From Bowmanella denitrificans (GTDB lineage: Bacteria; Pseudomonadota; Gammaproteobacteria; Enterobacterales; Alteromonadaceae), in assembly GCF_002887595.1 (NCBI RefSeq), contig NZ_PEBU01000018.1, positions 1 through 64,000 on the forward strand: 64,000 nt of DNA, written 5' to 3'. The notes beneath the pieces are model-generated. The model had not been told where the DNA came from, ran no database searches, and saw only the letters and a program-made list of their open reading frames with translations. A program made the position numbers and the translations under genes. Shown here piece by piece: positions 5,952-64,000 of this stretch (its first letter is position 1; each line of letters opens with the position of its first letter).

Positions 5952-8273
5952 ATGGAAACATCCAGGCTTCAATCCACCGCTACCAAGGCTTATCAATTAT
6001 CACTCAGTCCCATTATGCTGGCCATTCTGGCCTTGTCTGCGCCGGTGATGGCTGCTGAAGACTTGTCTGCAACTGGCGCCGATAAAAGTCAAAATGCCCT
6101 AAATGATCCCGACGGTACCAGTAAAACCCGCGCCCAGGAATATGAACGTATTTATGTTACCGCATCCACAGAAGGCAATTATTCTGACGCCGCCACCAAG
6201 TCAGCGACCAAAATGATTTTGTCACTGCGCGAAACACCACAGTCGGTGTCGGTGATCACCCGCCAGTTTCTGGAAGACTGGAACACGGTTAATATCAAGG
6301 ATATTTTGCAGCACAGTACCGGCGTATACACCAATTTTGGCGCAGGTGAAGAGCGCCCTTCATTTATGGTACGGGGTGGTGAAGCGAATCTGATTCAAAT
6401 CGATGGCGTACAGCAATTTCCCGGTGGTCGCCGCCCTGACGTAAACGGTGATTCCGTCGCCTTTGAACGGGTGGAGATACTGCGCGGTGCCAATGGTTTG
6501 ATGACAGGGGTGGGCGATCCCACCGCCACCGTCAACCTGGTAAGAAAGCGTGCCGTGAGTCGACATACCGATGCTCATGTGGGGATCAGTGGCGGACGCT
6601 GGGGCTATCAGCGTATCGAAGCAGATGTGGCCACTGCGCTGACCGAAGACGGTGATGTGCGAGCCCGCATTGCCGCAGCCCATTACGACAGGGATTCTTA
6701 CATTGACCGCTACGGTCAGAAGAAAACCTCGGTTTATGCCACGGTGGAAGCGGATTTGGGGGATGCCACTTTAGTACGCGGCGGGATTGAATATGCTGAC
6801 ACTGCGTCCCGCGGCGTGATTAACACCCACGCGGTGCACTATTATTACGCCGATGGCAGTCTGGTCAATCCCAGCCGCAATATGACCGGTATGTCTGCTG
6901 ACTGGAGCGCCTGGCCGATTAAGGAGAAAACCTACTTTGTTGGTGTCGATCATGCCTTTGACAATGGCTGGCAGTTAAACGCCATTGCCACTTACAACAC
7001 TATCGATATGCAGGGCGGCGAGCTGTTCTTTGTGTATCCAGAGGATTATATGGATCCCGATGGCAGCAGCCGTCTGGGCTTTGGTTACAGTGCCGTGATC
7101 AGCAGCAGTGAAGACCAGCAAAAAACCTTTGATGTGACCCTGCAGGGCACTTACGAGTTACTGGGACGTGAGCATGACTTAGTCCTGGGCTACAGCTACT
7201 TTAACCGCGACAGGACCAGTTTTGGCAACCAAGCCGACCAGACCACGATTTCACTGGAAGGCCTGAATTACAATACCTGGACCGGGGATGTAGCGCGCTA
7301 CCCCTTTGAAGATTCTGGTCGCAGCAGTCTGAATAAAAACAGCAGCGGCGGTGCCTTTATTGCCACCCGTCTGCACTTTACCGATGAACTGAAGTTGATC
7401 ACCGGCGCCAGGTTGACTAACTGGCAAACCCGCACACATATGTATGATCCCAACAGCGGTGAATATCGCATGACCCGCAGTGAATATGAGGTTGACCGGG
7501 AACTCACCCCCTATGCCGGTTTAGTCTATGAGGTAAATGATAATGTCAGCCTGTACGCCAGCTATACCGACGCCTTCAGACCGCAAAATTACTATGATGC
7601 CAACGACGATATTCTCGATCCTGTGAGCGGCCGCAGCTATGAAGGTGGCGTAAAGGCAGAGTTTGATTTACTGAACCTGTCAGCCGCCTACTTTGAATCC
7701 GAGCAGGACAACGTGGCGGAGCGCGATACGTCATTTCCGCTCGACTATCTGACACCAGGCGGTAATACCCCATATCGCAGCAGCGGCAAAGGCAATAAAA
7801 CCCAAGGTTACGAGCTGGAAGTATCAGGCGAGGTGGTACATGGCTGGAACGTGTTTGGTGGCTACGCTTATGCTAAAACCGAAGACAACCAGGGACAGGC
7901 GATCAGAACCGAGATACCGCGCAAACTGTTCAACTTAAACACCACCTATCAACTCCCTGGTGCCTGGCATGATCTGGTATTGGGAGCCGGTATTCACTGG
8001 CAGTCCGCCTATTTCGTTAATAGTAAAAAACCAGCAGGTCTTGGCCGGGATGAGAACGGCTATGTGATTACTACTCCCGAGCGCCGCGAGCAGGGAGCGG
8101 TTGCTCTGGTCAATCTGATGGCCAGATACAGGCTGACGGAACAGATTAGCCTGTCGCTGAACATCAACAACCTGTTTGATAAAGCGTACTTTAACAGCAT
8201 CTCGTCCTGGGATGGCAGTGTCGTATGGGGAACACCGAGAAACTGGACCCTTAGCGCCAGATACGACTGGTAA
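5952..8273 (+). CDS. TonB-dependent siderophore receptor (FhuE/FpvA type)
   Basis: Protein of 773 residues, an outer-membrane ferric-siderophore receptor. A signal peptide ends near PVMAAED. The TonB box region lies around ERIYVTA. The plug domain shows RETPQSVSVITRQ and FMVRGGEANLIQIDGVQ, typical of hydroxamate-type siderophore receptors. The rest is the 22-strand barrel, ending in the aromatic residue of ARYDW as required for barrel insertion. No N-terminal signalling (STN) domain is present, so it should not work through a FecR/sigma pair. It is preceded by a Fur box and followed by an iron-uptake membrane gene cluster. Exact ligand not determinable. Confidence 0.92.
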   Translation: METSRLQSTATKAYQLSLSPIMLAILALSAPVMAAEDLSATGADKSQNALNDPDGTSKTRAQEYERIYVTASTEGNYSDAATKSATKMILSLRETPQSVSVITRQFLEDWNTVNIKDILQHSTGVYTNFGAGEERPSFMVRGGEANLIQIDGVQQFPGGRRPDVNGDSVAFERVEILRGANGLMTGVGDPTATVNLVRKRAVSRHTDAHVGISGGRWGYQRIEADVATALTEDGDVRARIAAAHYDRDSYIDRYGQKKTSVYATVEADLGDATLVRGGIEYADTASRGVINTHAVHYYYADGSLVNPSRNMTGMSADWSAWPIKEKTYFVGVDHAFDNGWQLNAIATYNTIDMQGGELFFVYPEDYMDPDGSSRLGFGYSAVISSSEDQQKTFDVTLQGTYELLGREHDLVLGYSYFNRDRTSFGNQADQTTISLEGLNYNTWTGDVARYPFEDSGRSSLNKNSSGGAFIATRLHFTDELKLITGARLTNWQTRTHMYDPNSGEYRMTRSEYEVDRELTPYAGLVYEVNDNVSLYASYTDAFRPQNYYDANDDILDPVSGRSYEGGVKAEFDLLNLSAAYFESEQDNVAERDTSFPLDYLTPGGNTPYRSSGKGNKTQGYELEVSGEVVHGWNVFGGYAYAKTEDNQGQAIRTEIPRKLFNLNTTYQLPGAWHDLVLGAGIHWQSAYFVNSKKPAGLGRDENGYVITTPERREQGAVALVNLMARYRLTEQISLSLNINNLFDKAYFNSISSWDGSVVWGTPRNWTLSARYDW

Positions 8274-30816: not shown

Positions 30817-31608
30817 TTATACGAATTCGAGTAGTTGCCAGTAAATAATGGGAAAGGTATCAAGCTGGCCATGGTACGACCCTCTCTGAATGTCTATGGC
30901 GGTGCTGCTGGCTAGATGCACACTGGCTGAGATGCTCATCGCGTACGAGTTGGTGCCCTCATTTATACTGTGGCCGCTGCGGTAGGTTGCCAATACAACG
31001 GTTTTGTTGACATCAACCGGGCTAATTGAGATTGCTCCTGTGGAGCCTGCCGATACAACCCCACGCTGCACAGGCTTAATGACGCTAGTTGGCAACAAGT
31101 CCAGCCGCGCTTTAATCAAGCTGTACAGACTGCCCGCCGTTTCGCGCACAAGCTCGGCCATCACGGCATCGCGCGCCTGTTTAACGGTGATGCCGTCTTT
31201 AACGCTGTCTCTGGCGCTGTTAATCACCGATGACAGCAAGGCGTAGAGGCTACCGCCCGTGGTGCGGCTCAGCTCGTTGATAATGTCGGTTTTCGCAGTG
31301 GTGACCTGTGCCGGGGTGGCGCGCGAGGATGTGGCTACATCCGTGCGCTCGGCAATGGTGTTGATTTTGGCGGCAGCGGCGGCGTTAATGTCGCTGGCAA
31401 TGCCTGCCAGGATGGCAATGTCAACCGGGTCGCTGGCCGGTGTGAGGGCGCTGATGCGATTCTGCAGCTCTGTTTCAAATGCGGCGATGTTAGCCCCAAC
31501 CCGGCCAGTGATGTACAACTGCCCCAGGGCGGGGGTGCTGAGCGCGCTGAGGTTACCCCCGGCGATGCTGGCCGCAACGGATACAATATTGCTGGTGTTT
31601 AACGGCAT
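30817..31608 (-). CDS. Putative tail fibre protein, alanine-rich
   Basis: Protein of 263 residues. The first 160 are helical and low in charge, with two related segments (LSRTTGGSLYALLSSVI and LVRETAGSLYSLIKARL) that look like an internal repeat, suggesting a coiled shaft. The C-terminal 90 residues are beta-rich (GVVSAGSTGAISISPVDVN). AGGAGGGT lies before the ATG. Likely a structural fibre or tip protein by context; no family recognised. Confidence 0.6.
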   Translation of the reverse strand: MPLNTSNIVSVAASIAGGNLSALSTPALGQLYITGRVGANIAAFETELQNRISALTPASDPVDIAILAGIASDINAAAAAKINTIAERTDVATSSRATPAQVTTAKTDIINELSRTTGGSLYALLSSVINSARDSVKDGITVKQARDAVMAELVRETAGSLYSLIKARLDLLPTSVIKPVQRGVVSAGSTGAISISPVDVNKTVVLATYRSGHSINEGTNSYAMSISASVHLASSTAIDIQRGSYHGQLDTFPIIYWQLLEFV

Positions 31609-31616
31609 GGACCCTC

Positions 31617-31859
31617 CTAAATAAACATGGCCAGCGTGGCGACATCGGTGGCTTTTTTAACGTCTGCCTCTGTGGCTACGTTACCGCCGACCAGGGCTTC
31701 CAGATCCTGGCCAATGTCCAGGGCGGCCTGGATGTTGATGCCCAGGGCGGCAAAGTCGTCAATCAAACCATTGAATGTGTCAATCAGGGTGTTGAGCTTT
31801 TGCACATACTCATAATCAGGGACTTTAAAGCGCCCGGATTCGGGGATTTTTGCTGCCAT
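31617..31859 (-). CDS. Small helical tail-module protein
   Basis: About 80 residues, fully helical: MAAKIPESGRFKVPDYEYVQ, then LNTLIDTFNGLIDDFAALG and a C-terminal helix. The start at 31,859 overlaps the preceding stop codon (TAATG); an earlier in-frame ATG at 31,940 lies inside the neighbouring gene. Unknown function, probably a tail-tip adaptor. Confidence 0.55.
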   Translation of the reverse strand: MAAKIPESGRFKVPDYEYVQKLNTLIDTFNGLIDDFAALGINIQAALDIGQDLEALVGGNVATEADVKKATDVATLAMFI

Positions 31860-42265: not shown

Positions 42266-42625
42266 TTACGCGCCCGCCTGTTGGTCAGCCGCTTTGTCGT
42301 CGCCAGCTTCATCTTTGGGGGGGGCTTTGTCGGCGGCCTTGGGATTGGCGGTTTTCTTATTAGCCGCCGTTTTTTCCGCTTCGGCCTGGGCGGCGGTGTA
42401 GGCGGCCTGGTCCACAGCGTCGGTGTTGACGGTATCGGCCAGTTCTTCAAGGGCCACTTCCCGCACAGATAAACGCGGTTCTTTGTGCAACCGCTTGAGG
42501 TCGGATTCGCTGAAATAATCAAGGGGGAAGGCACTGCCTTGGTCAGTAAAACCATGGCCGCAACGGCGAAACGATGCACCCAGGGCGGTCACCACCAGGA
42601 CCTTTATTAAGGCTGATTTAGTCAT
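42266..42625 (-). CDS. Mu gp35-like protein (HI1506-related)
   Basis: About 119 residues. The N-terminal half has SFRRCGHGFTDQGSAFPLDY and LKRLHKEPRLSVREV, the pattern of Mu gp35/HI1506-type proteins (a short domain ending in L.v.ev). The C-terminal half is a low-complexity Ala/Lys/Asp tail. The start at 42,625 has GGGAG seven bases upstream; that site lies inside an ACAACTGGGAG sequence of the hexamer array. It follows the capsid gene, as in Mu. Confidence 0.72.
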   Translation of the reverse strand: MTKSALIKVLVVTALGASFRRCGHGFTDQGSAFPLDYFSESDLKRLHKEPRLSVREVALEELADTVNTDAVDQAAYTAAQAEAEKTAANKKTANPKAADKAPPKDEAGDDKAADQQAGA

Positions 42626-42637
42626 TATTTGTCTCCC

Positions 42638-42661
42638 AGTTGTCACAGTTGTAATGGTTGT
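42638..42661 (-). promoter_or_regulatory. ACAACY hexamer triplet, 9-bp period, before gp35
   Basis: On the minus strand three hexamers ACAACC, ACAACT and ACAACT occur every 9 bp (plus-strand AGTTGT at 42,638 and 42,647 and GGTTGT at 42,656). The array ends at the ribosome site of the gp35-like gene. The same array type is found at 55,531-55,583. It may be a DNA operator or an RNA-protein binding site in the leader; the binding protein is unknown. Confidence 0.6.
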
Positions 42662-42670
42662 ACCCCTGGT

Positions 42671-42700
42671 CCAGCGGCTGGCGGTTACACCAGCCGCTGG
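42671..42700 (-). other. Hairpin after the major capsid gene
   Basis: CCAGCGGCTGG-8-CCAGCCGCTGG, an 11-bp perfect stem, lies 40 bp after the capsid stop codon on the minus-strand transcript. There is no T-run, so it may stabilise or attenuate the mRNA, keeping capsid expression above that of downstream genes, rather than fully terminate it. Confidence 0.6.
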
Positions 42701-42740: not shown

Positions 42741-43664
42741 TTACAGGAAGTCCGGCGAAACAACCTTAAATTGACCTTTAAGCTCGTTGCTGACCGATAC
42801 GCCGCCCTCGTCAATCATTTCGCGGGTGTTAATTTGCTTAGCCAGCTTTTCCAGTGAACTGGGCACCACCAGCGTCAGGGTGTTTTTACCCAGCCCAAGT
42901 GGGCGGCCGCCATCGGCCTTAAAGCTGCGCATCAGATTGATGGCTTCCCACAGGGTGTCGCGCGTTAATGCTTTCTTAACGCCGATGGCCATTTGCCAGA
43001 AGCCATAGCCGACGTTACAGCGACAGTCGACGCCATAACGGAAGATCTTGTTGGTGAATACGGCTTCGTCGTTGGGGTTGTCCATGGCCACAAACTGCAT
43101 GCCTTTGCGATCTTGGAATATAAGGGGTTTAAGGCTGCGGCTGGTGTCGAGCAGATACCACGCTTCACCCACGTACCCGGCATCTATAATGGCGTTGGCA
43201 TAGCTGGTGTCTGCGCCGGTGCCATCCACTTCGGCGTTTACCGGATGGTCGGTGTCAAAGAAGTACTGGCCGTCGTAACAGACAGTTGTAAAACCAGCCG
43301 CCAACATAGGAAATACCAGCTCGTCGGGGAAGACTGACGCGGCATAACCCATTTCATTGAACATAGGGGCATAGACACCGAGGTTATCGTCGTCAATGTC
43401 GTTGCGGTCTACTTCCACCGAACTTTCAAAATCTTTGTTGGTGATGCTGTAGGCGTGTTCCTTCATTGACTTCATTACACGGGGACCAATCCACTCGCGA
43501 AAGCCTGGCCATTGCCCTAACCAGCCGTAAGTATTCGATTTGCTGGAACTAGGCACCACGGTTGCCACTTCTTGGAACATGGGCTGGCCTTTGACCTTGC
43601 CGTCTTCAAAGTTCTTTTTAAAGCCGGTACGCAAGCCGTTTAACGTTGCGGACGTAATAATCAT
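42741..43664 (-). CDS. Major capsid protein, Mu gpT-like
   Basis: Protein of 307 residues (Mu gpT 305). Hallmarks: FKKNFEDGKVKGQPMFQEVA, WLGQWPGFREWIGPR, DFESSVEVDRNDIDDDNLG, and FFDTDHPVNAE with RVYLVV-type text replaced by NTLTLVVPSSLE. It builds the icosahedral head on the scaffold encoded just upstream. CAGGAGAACC precedes the start. A hairpin follows the gene. Confidence 0.93.
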   Translation of the reverse strand: MIITSATLNGLRTGFKKNFEDGKVKGQPMFQEVATVVPSSSKSNTYGWLGQWPGFREWIGPRVMKSMKEHAYSITNKDFESSVEVDRNDIDDDNLGVYAPMFNEMGYAASVFPDELVFPMLAAGFTTVCYDGQYFFDTDHPVNAEVDGTGADTSYANAIIDAGYVGEAWYLLDTSRSLKPLIFQDRKGMQFVAMDNPNDEAVFTNKIFRYGVDCRCNVGYGFWQMAIGVKKALTRDTLWEAINLMRSFKADGGRPLGLGKNTLTLVVPSSLEKLAKQINTREMIDEGGVSVSNELKGQFKVVSPDFL

Positions 43665-54601: not shown

Positions 54602-54894
54602 GTGGGTTCCTTTAATCGCTGCCGGGCTGCCTGCAGGGCGGCCAGGCGGCTTTGCTGTGGTGGTGAGGATACGCTGCTGGGCGTGTGGCCAGTTTGGTTG
54701 GCGTTGATGTACTGCTGTATTTCGGCCAGCGATACGCTGTTCCAGCCTTGCCGCCAGTAGCTGTGCGCGGTGGCGTTGTGGCTGCTTAGGGGCATTTGGG
54801 TGGCGCGTTGGCTTTGCCAGGCGGTTAACTCGGCAGTAAAACGGGCCTTGCGGCCCATGTCGTAAAATTGCTGGTTGTGGCGGCTCATGACCAC
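54598..54894 (-). CDS. Hypothetical lysis-module protein
   Basis: Protein of 98 residues, not recognised: FYDMGRKARFTAELTAWQSQ, AHSYWRQGWNSVSLAEIQQY, then a Pro/Ser/Gln-rich tail. It lies between the endolysin and holin candidates with overlaps of 10 and 4 bases. The YWRQGW segment vaguely recalls the Rmf/CrpP pattern, but the match is weak. No signal peptide. Confidence 0.6.
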   Translation of the reverse strand: MVMSRHNQQFYDMGRKARFTAELTAWQSQRATQMPLSSHNATAHSYWRQGWNSVSLAEIQQYINANQTGHTPSSVSSPPQQSRLAALQAARQRLKEPT

Positions 54895-55406
54895 TTCCCG
54901 GACATTACCGCCCCTGGGGCGTACAGCAGGCGGTTGGCACTTTCGGTGTAGTGTTCCTCGGTGCCTTTGCCAAGCTCGGTGTTGTAAAAACGCTTCCAGT
55001 ACTTGGCGCGGGCGGGCAGGGTGGCGGGTATGATTTCGGGACGCAGCTTGTATTTAAGGCGGCAGCAAATCATTGACAACACCGGGTCGTCGGCCAGGTC
55101 AAGGGCAAACAGCGCATCAAGGTTATAGCCCCAGATATTGCTGAGTAATAGCTTGTCTTGTTGGCGGGTGCGCTTTTGCAAGTCGGTAAAGCCAACGTGG
55201 TCAAACTGGTTGAGGCCAAAGCCGTTGCTGGGGGTGGTGTCTGGATACTGGCCTAACTGGGTTTCAGCACTGGCGGTTTCCATCAGCAGGTTGATGGCGC
55301 AGCCGTTTACCCCGTGGCCAAACACGGAACATACTTGGGTGGCTTGGTTTAGTGCTTCCTGGTGGGAAGCTAAGCCGTAATAGAGTGTGGGATTTTCTTG
55401 GTTCAT
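54885..55406 (-). CDS. Putative endolysin, lysozyme-like
   Basis: Protein of 173 residues. The block LLMETASAETQLGQYPD followed by NGFGLNQFD resembles lysozyme/SLT folds, with Glu of METASAE as candidate catalytic residue and the glycine-rich strand after it. The later RAKYWKRFYNTELGKGTEEH is shared by a phage protein group often annotated as lysozyme-like. It has no signal peptide, so it would need the holin encoded two genes downstream. It is the first late gene after the candidate promoter. Confidence 0.55.
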   Translation of the reverse strand: MNQENPTLYYGLASHQEALNQATQVCSVFGHGVNGCAINLLMETASAETQLGQYPDTTPSNGFGLNQFDHVGFTDLQKRTRQQDKLLLSNIWGYNLDALFALDLADDPVLSMICCRLKYKLRPEIIPATLPARAKYWKRFYNTELGKGTEEHYTESANRLLYAPGAVMSGKWS

Positions 55407-55494: not shown

Positions 55495-55523
55495 ATCCTG
55501 TGCTTCTAATTGGTTGCTGTCAA
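55495..55523 (-). promoter_or_regulatory. Candidate late promoter
   Basis: On the minus strand TTGACA (55,523-55,518), a perfect -35 hexamer, is followed by a 17-base spacer and CAGGAT (55,500-55,495), a weak -10. It lies just downstream of the ACAACY arrays and about 90 bp before the endolysin gene. A weak -10 next to upstream binding sites fits an activator-dependent late promoter. Confidence 0.5.
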
Positions 55524-55530
55524 GGCCGGT

Positions 55531-55583
55531 ACAACCTTAACAACTATCACAACTGTGGCAGTTGTTAAGGTTGTGTTGGTTGT
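55531..55583. promoter_or_regulatory. Facing ACAACY hexamer arrays with 9-bp period
   Basis: Plus-strand hexamers ACAACC, ACAACT and ACAACT begin at 55,531, 55,540 and 55,549. Minus-strand copies (plus-strand AGTTGT, GGTTGT and GGTTGT) begin at 55,560, 55,569 and 55,578. All steps are exactly 9 bp. The two arrays face each other, which also creates a 15-bp perfect inverted repeat (55,531-55,545 with 55,560-55,574). The stop codon of the ATPase gene lies within the right array. Probable operator for a phage regulator, such as the Mor-like protein (inference). Confidence 0.7.
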
Positions 55584-56476
55584 TCGGCCAGGTAGCTGTA
55601 GTGGCAACTGCGGCCCTTGCGGCTACAGGACCAGTGTTTGCCTTCGTAGCGGTCCAGGCGTGCCCTGGCGGTTTTGTCGTCTTTTTCGCAGCCTACCGCT
55701 TTGAGCAGGTCGGTTTTGTTGAGGGTGGGGAACTGGCGCAGGGCGGCTTTGACGTCCTGGATAAATTCCAGATCGTCTTCGCTGGCCAGGGCTTCGGTCA
55801 TGTCTTTTTCAGTTAGCGCCAGGCTGGTGGGGCAAATATCAAAGGCTTTGTTTTGAATGTTGGCGCGCTCTTTTACCGCTTCCAGCAGCACGCCAATGCC
55901 GTTGGCTTGTTCGCGCTTACGCAGGCGGTACATGTTGTCTACCGAGTTGCGAATATTGTTACTGCCCTGGTAGTTGCGGCCGTCTTTGTTGCTGTGGTGC
56001 AGCACCACAACGGTGGCCCCGGCTTCACGAATGTTCATTAGCCGGTCCATGACGCGCATAATTTGGCTGTCGTGGGCGACGTCGCCAAAGTTACGCAGGC
56101 TGTCGAAAATGAACACCATGTTTTCGTAGCGGCTGGCGGTGGCGGCGTTGGCCAGTTGTTCCAACAGCTCCCCGGCACCCAGGGCGCTTTTACTGCGTTG
56201 TATGTAATGCAGGTTGGCGTAACGGCGTACCAGCTTGCGTTCCACCCCGCGCTCGGCCAGTACGCTCAACGGGTTGTCAAAGTCCATATAAACAACGGTT
56301 AAACGCTGGGCGGCGCAGTAGTTGGCCAGGGCAAAACCAACCCAGGTTTTCCCGTTACCGCCGTCGGCAAACAGCATGGTAATTTGCCGCTTGGCCAGGA
56401 AGCCGGGCAGAATAAAATCAACGCTTTCGTTAAAGTCTTCCGGGCGCAGGGCGGCGGCTTGTAGGACTTCTAGCAT
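55565..56476 (-). CDS. RepA-like AAA (RecA-fold) helicase ATPase
   Basis: Protein of 303 residues. Walker A is ADGGNGKTW near residue 40, Walker B is MVFIFDSLRNFGD, and VVVLHHSNKDGRNYQGSNN is the third motif of RepA/DnaB-type hexameric ATPases (AAA_25). The C-terminal 80 residues are a winged-helix-like part (LRQFPTLNKTDLLKAVG). It may unwind or remodel DNA during replication. Mu itself has no such gene and uses host DnaB; this phage also has a P-like loader. Last gene before the late control region. Confidence 0.8.
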   Translation of the reverse strand: MLEVLQAAALRPEDFNESVDFILPGFLAKRQITMLFADGGNGKTWVGFALANYCAAQRLTVVYMDFDNPLSVLAERGVERKLVRRYANLHYIQRSKSALGAGELLEQLANAATASRYENMVFIFDSLRNFGDVAHDSQIMRVMDRLMNIREAGATVVVLHHSNKDGRNYQGSNNIRNSVDNMYRLRKREQANGIGVLLEAVKERANIQNKAFDICPTSLALTEKDMTEALASEDDLEFIQDVKAALRQFPTLNKTDLLKAVGCEKDDKTARARLDRYEGKHWSCSRKGRSCHYSYLAEQPTQP

Positions 56477-57686: not shown

Positions 57687-58121
57687 TTAAAGTAAACGGC
57701 CCTGCACTTTGGCGCGGTATTCTTCGCGCTTGTGTTGCAGGATTTTGTAGACCTGGATCTGGTTTAGCTCCGGGCAGTACTCTTTGTGGATGCGGGCAAC
57801 CGGCCAGTTGTGCTGGTTCCAGAGCCGGAACATGTGCATGTCGCGCAGTTCCTGGCGCAGTTTGTCGCCGCGCGGCAGGTAGCGGCACTCGCCGCCCTGG
57901 TAGTGGGCAATTTCGGCAATGGTTTCGCAGGCCAGCTTGTAGGCTTGTTTTGAGTCAATACCGTTTTTGGCCAGGCGACGTTCTATTAGCAGTAGCAGCG
58001 TCCACAGGTGTTCTTTGTAGGCGGCCATGGCCCGTTGCTGGTCACTGGCCAGAGCGGGCAGGTGGTCCAGTAACTGGTCAAAGCCGTCGTCTAAAAACAG
58101 CAGTTGTTGTTCTTCAGTCAT
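57687..58121 (-). CDS. Mor-like transcription activator
   Basis: Protein of 144 residues. The N-terminal part is helical and mediates dimerisation in Mor. The C-terminal part shows YQGGECRYLPRGDKLRQELR, then IHKEYCPELNQIQVYKILQH, the helix-turn-helix pattern of the Mor/C family. In Mu, Mor and C turn on middle and late promoters without a -35 contact. Only one family member is seen here, so it may drive the late operon, possibly through the ACAACY arrays. It overlaps the P-like gene by 8 bases. Confidence 0.75.
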   Translation of the reverse strand: MTEEQQLLFLDDGFDQLLDHLPALASDQQRAMAAYKEHLWTLLLLIERRLAKNGIDSKQAYKLACETIAEIAHYQGGECRYLPRGDKLRQELRDMHMFRLWNQHNWPVARIHKEYCPELNQIQVYKILQHKREEYRAKVQGRLL

Positions 58122-58818
58122 GGGCGGGGCCTCGTTGCTGGGTGCGCAGACTGGCCAGACGTTTTTGCAGTTGGCAGTCTTCGTCTATCCATTGCTGGGG
58201 GATCACTGGCGGCAGTTTGCGTGCGATGTTGTAGCTAAGCAGTGGGCGCGGCTCTGGCAGGGTGCCTGCTTTAAACTGGGTGATAATCCGTTTCCATTCG
58301 GTGTTAAACCGCCGCTCGAAGCTGCTGGCCGCTTCCTGGGTAACGTGGTGGCCGATATGCTGGTTGATAACCTCTACCACTCTGTGCAACCAGGTGAACT
58401 GTTCGACAAAGCGGTACTTGCCGTGGCGGTCAATGATTTGTTGCAGGGCCTGGTGTTTTTCGGGCAGGCCCAATGCTTGAGGGTCGTCACACAGGTTTAA
58501 AAACTCTGGTAGCTCTGGGGGCCATTCAAGCTTGGCGCTGATAATGCGCTGGATGGCGTGGGCCACTTGTTCTGGCTTTATGGCTTCCTGGATAAAGGCT
58601 TTTGCCCACATGCGCTTGGTGGCGTCCAGTTCGTTCTTGCTGGTGAAGCGGCTGGCATACTTGCGGCCAAAAATAAGCTGCAACTGGCCAAATGCTTGGT
58701 TGATTAAGGGCGCTACCTGTTGCATGGCGGTGTCACTTTGCCCAGTCGCTGTTGTCGACTTGCAAGAGGGCGTGGCCAATGTCTTGGCGATGTGTTGCAG
58801 ATCTTGCGGGCTTTTCAT
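58114..58818 (-). CDS. Replication protein P-like helicase loader
   Basis: Protein of 234 residues. From residue 32, QQVAPLINQAFGQLQLIFG, then RMWAKAFIQEAIKPEQVAHA and LPEFLNLC follow the lambda P sequence pattern (VAQIINGVFSQL, WVLAFRENGIT, FVAWC). Lambda P captures host DnaB and loads it at the origin. GGAGCCAACC precedes the ATG at 58,818, which lies 86 bases inside the 3' end of the upstream gene in another frame. Unusual in a Mu-type phage. Confidence 0.75.
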   Translation of the reverse strand: MKSPQDLQHIAKTLATPSCKSTTATGQSDTAMQQVAPLINQAFGQLQLIFGRKYASRFTSKNELDATKRMWAKAFIQEAIKPEQVAHAIQRIISAKLEWPPELPEFLNLCDDPQALGLPEKHQALQQIIDRHGKYRFVEQFTWLHRVVEVINQHIGHHVTQEAASSFERRFNTEWKRIITQFKAGTLPEPRPLLSYNIARKLPPVIPQQWIDEDCQLQKRLASLRTQQRGPAHD

Positions 58819-61886: not shown

Positions 61887-62594
61887 TTACTGCGCACTTG
61901 GGAAGAACGCCTGATTGCCCCACTGTTCAGCGGTAACGCTGGTCAGTTTGTTGGCTTTGGCGAACTTTTCGATTTTGTCCAGGGCGGTATGGATACGGCG
62001 ATACGAGCCCTTACTGACGTCCAGCAGTTGCGCGGCCAGACAGTCGGCGATGCTGCAGTTTTCCAGCAGCGCTTTGGCCATTATGGCGATGTCGCCAGAG
62101 TTTGCGGGCTTGAACTCGACATGCTGGGCCACGCGGCTGTCTAACTGTTCGAGACGTTTGATTTTGCGGGGCAGTTCGGCGTAACCAATCATGATGATCG
62201 GCACGTTGGCCATGTCGTAAATGTCGCGAATGGTTTCCAGAATTTCGGGCTTGTCGGCGATGTAATCGCATTCGTCAATAAACAAGGGCAGGCGGGTAAC
62301 GCACAGCTCTTTAATGATGAAATTAAAGGTGTCGACTTTGCTCCAGCGTTTGTCCAGGCCCAGTTCCTGGCCTATGCGTTCCAGAAAACTGCGGGGGCTG
62401 TCGGCCTTCAGGCAGCGCACAAGCAGGCCATTTGCCTGGGCGAACAACCAGACACCTGCAGTGGTTTTGCCGTAACCGGCTTTGCCAGTGAACATGCCGA
62501 TAGCTGGGGAGCCAGACTGGGCGGCGTCCATCAGGTTCTGGAAGGCTTCAAAGGCTGCCATGACGTTGCTGGTTCTTGCTACTGTGGATTTCAT
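61887..62594 (-). CDS. MuB-like AAA+ ATPase, transposition target activator
   Basis: Protein of 235 residues. Walker A is GKAGYGKTT near residue 37, Walker B is LPLFIDECDYI, and an arginine-rich sensor region follows in LPRKIKRLEQLDSRVAQ. It matches the short MuB/TniB-type ATPases that bind target DNA, choose insertion sites and stimulate the transposase. The C-terminal part is helical. It overlaps the transposase gene by 4 bases (ATGA). Confidence 0.87.
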   Translation of the reverse strand: MKSTVARTSNVMAAFEAFQNLMDAAQSGSPAIGMFTGKAGYGKTTAGVWLFAQANGLLVRCLKADSPRSFLERIGQELGLDKRWSKVDTFNFIIKELCVTRLPLFIDECDYIADKPEILETIRDIYDMANVPIIMIGYAELPRKIKRLEQLDSRVAQHVEFKPANSGDIAIMAKALLENCSIADCLAAQLLDVSKGSYRRIHTALDKIEKFAKANKLTSVTAEQWGNQAFFPSAQ

Positions 62595-64000
62595 TGGTGT
62601 TGCTCCTTTTTCAGGTCTTCTTCAAATAGCGTTTCCAAGAGTTGGAATTGCCGGGGTTGCGCACGTTGATACTGGTGCAGCCAGGCCCGTTCCTCTGGGG
62701 TTGCGGTGCCGTTTAAACGGCGTTCAAAGAGGTAACGTGCCTGGTGGTGCTCGTTGCGGAAAATGGGGGTGCTGTCTTCAGCCAGGGCTTGTTCTGCCGC
62801 CTGCAGTTGCTGGCGCTTGGCTTCAAATTCGCTGAGCTGCTGTTCGCTGTACTCGCTGTACTCGCTGGCTTGCTGACTTTGCTCTATGGCTTGCTGCGTG
62901 GCGTTGATTAGCGCACTGTCGGCCTGGCTGGCAGGTTTGGGGAAAGCGGCCAGGCTTTCAAACTGCTGCTTTTGGTGGGCCAGGATTTGCTGGGCGATGT
63001 CTTTCACCGAATGTTTTTTAGCAGTGTTGGCCAGTGCCTGGCGCTGTTCGCGCAGTTTGGCGCGCTGCAGTTCTTTGGCTTGGCGGGCGATGTCTTCGAG
63101 ATTGACGGTGCCGTCTGACAGCTCTGGGTTAACTGCTTCACAGATAAAGTGGTGGTGCAGCGCATGGAACACGTAGATTTTGCTGATGTCTTTGGGGTTC
63201 CAGCGGCAATACACGCGCTGGCCTATGTAGCCGCCCAATTCGGGGTGCACGTAACACATGTTTTCGATGCGGATGCCGTCTTTTTTGCTGACGGTGCGCT
63301 GGCCGTTGTTGCCGGGGATGGGGGCCAGCAGTACGTCTAGTACATGGTGGTTGTCTAACCGGCGTATGGTGGCTTTACTGTTGGTAAAGCGTTCAAACGG
63401 GCTGCAATTCAGTTCACTGTGGACCTTGGTGTGGTATTTGTAGTCGATCCAGTCGTTGATGAACTGTTGGAACTGTTCTGCTGACAATTCAACGTTGATG
63501 GCTTCTTTGTCGCGGCCTTTCAGGCGGCGTTCCATCAGGCGTTGATGAAATGGTATGCGCTTGCTGATTTGCTCGCGGTCAGCCACGCTGTGGCCAACGT
63601 AGCCTTGCAGCAGTTCGGCTATGCCATGGGAAAAAGTGCGGAAAAACCGTTCTATAAAAGGCTTTTGCCAGCCGCTGTAAGGCTGGGTGAGTTCCTGCTC
63701 TATACCCAGGGCGTCAAACACGCTGGTGATATGCACGCTGGTGTAGTCGCTGCCGTTGTCGGTGCGGGCGATGTCGGGCAAGCCCCATTCCAGGATGGTT
63801 TCGCGCATTAGCAGGGCGATACCTTCGGAGTTTGAGGTTTTCTTAAGTACGCATTTAACGCGGCGGGTGTAGATGTCGATTACGCCAATAATGGAGTAAC
63901 GGCCATCCAACAACATTACGTCGGCCGGGGTGCTGTCAAATTCCCATATATGGTTTATGTGCAGGGCTTCGGCGGCTTTGTTGCCGAAAGCGGCCATGTA
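62591..64000 (-). CDS. DDE transposase (MuA-like), N-terminus outside window
   Basis: At least 469 residues are visible; the frame continues past base 64,000, so the start is missing. The RNase H-type catalytic core has Asp in WEFDSTPADVMLLDG, Asp in ARTDNGSDYTS and Glu in YSGWQKPFIERFFRT. A Mu-C-type beta barrel follows (GGYIGQRVYCRWNPKDISKI), then a long Gln/Glu-rich helical tail that would contact the MuB-like protein. It cuts and joins the phage ends during integration and replicative transposition. DNA-binding domains that recognise the end repeats lie upstream, out of view. Confidence 0.92.
   Translation of the reverse strand, partial: YMAAFGNKAAEALHINHIWEFDSTPADVMLLDGRYSIIGVIDIYTRRVKCVLKKTSNSEGIALLMRETILEWGLPDIARTDNGSDYTSVHITSVFDALGIEQELTQPYSGWQKPFIERFFRTFSHGIAELLQGYVGHSVADREQISKRIPFHQRLMERRLKGRDKEAINVELSAEQFQQFINDWIDYKYHTKVHSELNCSPFERFTNSKATIRRLDNHHVLDVLLAPIPGNNGQRTVSKKDGIRIENMCYVHPELGGYIGQRVYCRWNPKDISKIYVFHALHHHFICEAVNPELSDGTVNLEDIARQAKELQRAKLREQRQALANTAKKHSVKDIAQQILAHQKQQFESLAAFPKPASQADSALINATQQAIEQSQQASEYSEYSEQQLSEFEAKRQQLQAAEQALAEDSTPIFRNEHHQARYLFERRLNGTATPEERAWLHQYQRAQPRQFQLLETLFEEDLKKEQHQ

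Follow-up and report, generated by a model that had tools for sequence, protein, structure and literature searches.

Facing arrays of a 9-bp ACAACY unit accompany a RepA/RadA-like ATPase gene in Mu-type phages and are a probable protein-binding site

The window, a stretch of 64,000 nucleotides from contig NZ_PEBU01000018.1 of Bowmanella denitrificans, contains a Mu-type prophage with its genes running leftwards, from MuA/MuB-like genes through Mor and a RepA/RadA-like ATPase to lysis-type genes and then packaging, head and tail genes. Two facing arrays of the unit ACAACYNNN lie at the end of the ATPase gene, and among the relatives compared the array largely co-occurs with that gene. Even viruses that are only distantly related have the arrays next to this gene, so its product, the ATPase, probably lands there. 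The coordinates of the features are listed in Table 1.

Table 1. Features of the prophage region in the window
Feature	Position	Strand	Remarks
MuA-like gene	62591-63997		prophage read leftwards
MuB-like gene	61887-62594		prophage read leftwards
Lambda P-like replication protein	58114-58818	-	PF06992, E 5.6e-15
Mor-family late activator	57687-58121	-	PF08765, E 4.5e-14
RepA/RadA-like ATPase gene, proposed binder	55565-56476	-	AAA_25 PF13481, E 2.3e-10; phrog_6357, E 3.4e-101
Stretch coding the ATPase C-terminal domain, about residues 226-299	55580-55801	-	NKTDLL..G..KDDKTARARLDRYEG..W; common to Rha-family proteins of relatives
Array 1, facing arm	55560-55583	-	exact match; ACAACCAAC ACAACCTTA ACAACT; ATPase stop codon inside
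Array 1, plus arm	55531-55554	+	exact match; ACAACCTTA ACAACTATC ACAACT
TTGACA, promoter-like, 5' of next gene	55518-55523	-	9/12 matches with 17-bp spacer; weak, reached by 6% of shuffles
Next gene (first lysis gene of the initial annotation)	54885-55406	-	phrog_3108, no known function; no Pfam match
Gene with weak holin match, after the 54885-55406 gene	54041-54601
Gene for Mu-like major head subunit (gpT), adjoining array 2 on its upstream side	42741-43664	-	PF10124, E 2.4e-117
Array 2, single (ACAACYNNN)3	42638-42661	-	exact match; between major capsid and FluMu_N-like genes; abuts Shine-Dalgarno-like GGGAGA
FluMu_N-like gene, downstream neighbour of array 2	42266-42625	-	ATG 42625-42623; PF17891, E 6e-05, just under cut-off

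The facing arms of array 1, described in the initial annotation as (ACAACYNNN)3 on opposite strands, are both exact, and the TTGACA element described on the minus strand is present as well. The arms form a 21-bp inverted repeat (90%), which corrects that annotation, and on the ATPase coding strand the plus arm appears as RGTTGT. The arrays had been placed between genes; they are not purely intergenic, as one arm overlaps the end of the ATPase gene (TAA, 55565-55567). A third exact array, array 2, had been overlooked in the same prophage. These three are the only exact arrays in the whole 5.48-Mb host genome, and no array occurred in 100 dinucleotide shuffles of the window. The Lambda P-like protein was found within a Mu-type prophage; homologues are present in the relatives G567, G568, G572 and G573, and tblastn gave no match for it in G569, G570 and G053.

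The ATPase contains a P-loop and matches AAA_25 (PF13481) with 40.9 bits against a cut-off of 27. Only ATPase-type Pfam matches were above cut-off, none of them a primase domain, and comparison of the whole protein with NCBIfam gave nothing above cut-offs. The best match among PDB profiles was RSF1010 RepA, which is weak (E 0.016). Tandem short repeats adjoin the gene, and its product may act as an initiator. A class-wide profile search of 369 genomes at E 1e-20 found the ATPase only in its own genome, and the order-wide search gave strong protein matches in three of 295 genomes. A single exact array occurs in 12 of 295 genomes of the host family, and facing pairs were observed only in G000 and G053, both of which carry the gene. 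Among plasmids, one record, from Campylobacter coli, gave a match at 39% identity.

Relatives of the ATPase were collected by protein (six loci in genome_contigs, 34 in viral_contigs, two phage records, plus genomes) and by the C-terminal domain (61 loci). Clustering at 85% identity gave 32 groups, one of which was dropped as a frame misread, leaving 31 clusters. No cluster depends on a record that only the array pattern had brought up, and some representatives are pieces of records that were also fetched by pattern. The array was scored over its 15 core bases from 150 bp before to 700 bp after the ATPase stop codon. A three-unit array at 14-15 of the 15 core bases is present near the gene end in 21 clusters, a level (at least 14/15) reached in one of 1240 shuffles of the same gene-end stretches. 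Two perfect units were found in five clusters (L143, L246, L283, L294, L299), and neither array nor two units in the remaining five (L217, L239, L276, L277, L280). Array-bearing clusters extend to 31% identity with the ATPase of the window. Retention of the array with its flanking gene, asked of close relatives in the initial annotation, holds for many relatives, and the protein-binding reading of the array proposed there is upheld as probable. In locus L306 (7736-8631) the ATPase match is in two pieces, with facing arrays present, and the gene may be broken or misread.

The converse scan of viral_contigs used exact (ACAACNNNN)3, a gap of 2-32, and (GTTGTNNNN)3. It returned ten stretches, the phage of the window among them. 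In every one the facing arrays are preceded, on the same strand, by the ATPase gene or its C-terminal domain, at a distance of about 50 bp or less in eight and about 590 bp in two; in L307, one of the ten, only the domain end is visible, since the fetched stretch begins there. A wider arrangement was observed in L145/G567 (31377-31720), with the facing arms separated by about 300 bp.

The ATPase ends in a stretch of ~70 residues (NKTDLL..G..KDDKTAR..LD.YEG..W) that is found again at the C-terminus of a second protein. In seven phages (L145/G567, L221/G568, L149/G572, L146/G573, L154, L174 and L244) this protein matches the Rha family (PF09669). In G568 and G569 the Rha-family gene lies past array 1 and begins about 300 bp from it; L244 has the ATPase and Rha-family pair without a clear array. 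No profile of Pfam or PDB matched the C-terminal domain above cut-offs, and as no library named it, a winged helix is only a guess. Two cases in which the motif and the array change together are suggestive only: in CAM-P21 the domain has no KDDKTAR and no array was found in the 29.5 kb examined, and in a Helicobacter prophage the motif is KGDKWAR and the units are ACAACACNT, with the sixth base changed. Clusters L239, L276, L277 and L280 have an intact KDDKTAR or KTDKTAR yet no adjacent array; three of their records have arrays elsewhere.

Binding of the array by the C-terminal domain of the ATPase is considered likely. Linkage in both directions, the domain shared with the Rha family, the phasing of the gaps and the polarity (both below), the two motif cases and the AAA_25 match support the following reading. 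The facing arrays would be read as double-stranded DNA by the C-terminal domain of the neighbouring RepA/RadA-like ATPase, each 9-bp unit (ACAACYNNN) seating one domain, and in some relatives the Rha-family protein with the same domain would read them as well, as a competitor or regulator. We infer a stoichiometry in which six subunits gather on the facing 3+3 site and three on a single array; the match of six units to the six subunits of a ring-type ATPase is attractive but unproven. The likely outcome would be that the ATPase assembles on, or is loaded onto, the phage DNA in an ATP-dependent manner, much as happens at an iteron origin. The full account, in which an iteron-like DNA site read by the C-terminal domain serves ATPase loading or as an origin, is put at slightly short of an even chance. 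Points against loading are the four intact-motif clusters without adjacent array, three off-phase gaps, the records without a distal array (10 of 30), the missing array between the capsid-side genes of G053, the ATPase without primase domain and the absence of a skew switch. GC skew, tried as a sign of an origin, gave nothing: in five phages the skew did not switch at array 1. No origin requirement is known for transposable phages, another point against.

The region had been named a late control region, and an operator or enhancer for phase-specific transcription is the first alternative: either the ATPase or the Rha-family protein, possibly together with Mor, would bind the array and so regulate the promoter from which the late or Rha gene behind it is transcribed. 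This is rather unlikely. In its favor are the Mor gene of the prophage, the description of Rha in Pfam as a phage regulatory protein, and TTGACA with a 17-bp spacer within 160 bp of an arm in six of 21 scored loci (the window, L138, L146, L149, L150, L154; two further loci had no arm to score), with TTGACA also adjoining the second arm in L145/G567. All six belong to the Alteromonas-type lineage, and against the operator, 1-21% of shuffles yield a promoter-like site as good as theirs. The other 15 scored loci are without TTGACA within that distance; nine of them have the next start codon at a distance of 16-34 bp, and in none of the 15 is a promoter-like site clearly better than shuffles. In L142 and L307 the facing arrays are flanked by the ATPase gene on one side and a GemA gene (PF06252) on the other, and several phages have distal arrays inside coding genes. 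On the GemA position, the loci without TTGACA and the distal arrays in coding genes, late control alone was rejected as a general account; promoter control is conceivable only in the Alteromonas-type lineage. In L138 (~6965-7060), and likewise in L149 and L154, a G+C-rich stretch resembling a hairpin and then a T-run come after the TTGACA unit by array 1 (by eye), possibly a short RNA or attenuator.

Arrays with no more than one mismatch in 15 were counted as distal if they lay over 1 kb downstream of the ATPase gene; 20 of 30 records have such an array, and the ten without include some fragments. In the window, G567, G568, G569, G570 and G572 a single array, 12.7-14.7 kb away from array 1, separates the capsid gene from the gene that follows it. 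Both capsid-side genes are present in G053, with no array of at least 16/18 between them. More distant phages have the distal array at other sites, several within coding genes of the head module, and in G667 it is inside an unnamed long gene 19 kb away. ACAAC is on the sense strand of the ATPase in 24 of 25 distal arrays (hand tally), and for all arrays in 19 of the 20 records; this polarity follows the ATPase gene even in G574, G672 and G680, whose head or packaging neighbours run the opposite way. The sole exception is G683, where the array follows the local gene direction. The records are not all independent, G569, G576 and G577 being near copies. Side features noted near such arrays were a perfect 11-bp inverted repeat in the window (42671-42700), lying between the capsid gene and array 2, and, by eye, hairpin-like stretches on the other side of array 2 in some relatives. 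Arrays also lie within or beside a MuA-like gene in Helicobacter prophage L218 (469-495) and in L236 (G471; 18520, 19284).

The fixed orientation of the distal array relative to array 1, kept despite reversed neighbours, favors a second alternative, in which a polar pair of sites would hold or order the genome of the phage, by looping, segregation or domain formation, instead of serving replication, and the ATPase tracks or clamps the DNA between array 1 and the distal array. We regard this as unlikely: the polarity is opposite in G683, a third of the records (10/30) have no distal array, the distances range from 1 to 19 kb, and the near copies are not independent. Pairing of RNA between array 1 and array 2 was rejected, as the spacers of the two arrays differ in the window, G567, G569, G570 and G572; only in G568 are they the same.

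The initial annotation also allowed for binding on RNA, which fits poorly. Facing arms could form a hairpin in the ATPase mRNA, acting on stability, termination or translation of the next gene, and the hairpin of the window folds at -35.3 kcal/mol (z -6.3). Sixteen facing pairs were chosen with both arms at 13/15 or better, so pairing of the units is built in (perfect in 12 of 16). Some pairing of the spacers is seen, little above that of permuted arms: the three spacer bases pair at 0.51 within phages versus 0.45 with arms permuted among phages (P 0.055), and with the sixth base included at 0.54 versus 0.48 (P 0.029). In seven of the 16 pairs, the window among them, the three-base spacers pair at no more than one third of positions. 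The gaps between facing arms (0, 6, 6, 7, 7, 11, 11, 17, 17, 17, 18, 28, 28, 29 and 29) fit best a period of 10.5 bp (n=15, R 0.62, P 0.004; n=11, P 0.01 with related phages collapsed), against a null of uniform gaps of 0-32; gaps 0, 11 and 11 are off phase. Since the spacers pair weakly and the gaps follow the helical repeat of DNA, the hairpin of the window appears to be a by-product. It has no T-run after it, and many relatives have a single arm only, so that an RNA element is improbable.

Chance or a codon-repeat artefact has a negligible probability of accounting for the arrays: beyond the shuffles of the window and of the gene ends, and the ten of ten exact facing arrays beside the gene or domain, the core GTTGT/ACAAC repeated three times at period 9 occurs 18 times with zero mismatches in nine phage records (296,847 bases, including the window from 28001 on), against a mean of 0.08 over all 5-mer cores. 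The other nine arrangements of the letters of GTTGT do not occur at all, and the cores that rank next, TACAA (3) and AGTTG (2), both overlap GTTGT/ACAAC. A chance origin of the facing arrays is refuted. Single arrays are less specific. At least 120 loci in viral_contigs have an exact one; among the matches listed, four match any of 28 window proteins and two (one contig) are of this phage group. The reversed control pattern also matches, 11 versus 45 at up to two mismatches in the first record set and 9 versus 39 at up to one mismatch in the second. As this control is not silent at those mismatch levels, lone distal arrays with one mismatch could be chance matches. One viral contig, L089, has thirteen overlapping exact (ACAACYNNN)3 at 5-113, a long tandem array, with no match to window proteins in the 2.7 kb examined.

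Several known systems resemble the proposed ATPase-binding site. Alpha of phage P4 is an SF3-type helicase, and the P4 origin needs a second repeat region (crr) at a distance. Both systems have an ATPase, a separate recognition domain (putative here) and short repeats. Alpha reads the origin repeats by a winged helix and has a primase domain (PMC4234260); here, in a transposable phage, the ATPase is of the RepA/RadA type without primase domain, and it would bind through its own terminal domain. In RSF1010, whose RepA is the weak best structural match given above, a separate RepC reads the iterons for RepA (PMC4234260), whereas the putative reader domain here seems fused to the ATPase. Proteins of the pRN1 type are described there as assembling downstream of their own gene, with a C-terminal winged helix in the pRN1 protein (PMC4234260). 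The pRN1-type replicons and Bordetella phage BIP-1 share with the present phages a site directly downstream of the initiator gene (a putative initiator here); their sites are large stem-loops without iterons (PMC4234260), in contrast to the fixed 9-bp unit arrays found here. The late promoters of phage Mu, served by Mor/C, are similar in their position before late genes in the lineage of the window, where Mor is present, but the array is not promoter-linked across relatives. The element would work like the replication systems named here and possibly belongs with them.

No paper in the open-licence literature was recognised as describing the array, and its two-site polarity and the Rha twin are the unusual parts. 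The phrog_6357 family (a PHROG of unassigned function), the unnamed C-terminal domain and the Rha family are tied here to one defined DNA site, and because of that link all three are testable by simple gel shift. Tentatively, and with some doubt, the arrays may be a polar two-site system in transposable phages of Alteromonas-type and Campylobacter-type hosts, in which an ATPase with its own reader of 9-bp units would assemble on the facing 3+3 array beside its gene and on the polar partner array, in many cases among the head genes, a Rha-family twin would compete, and a site-specific ATPase would be directed onto DNA during replicative transposition. To our knowledge, the Mu model has no such site-specific ATPase-loading step. 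If the site loads the ATPase, Mu-type phages of at least two bacterial phyla would have one.
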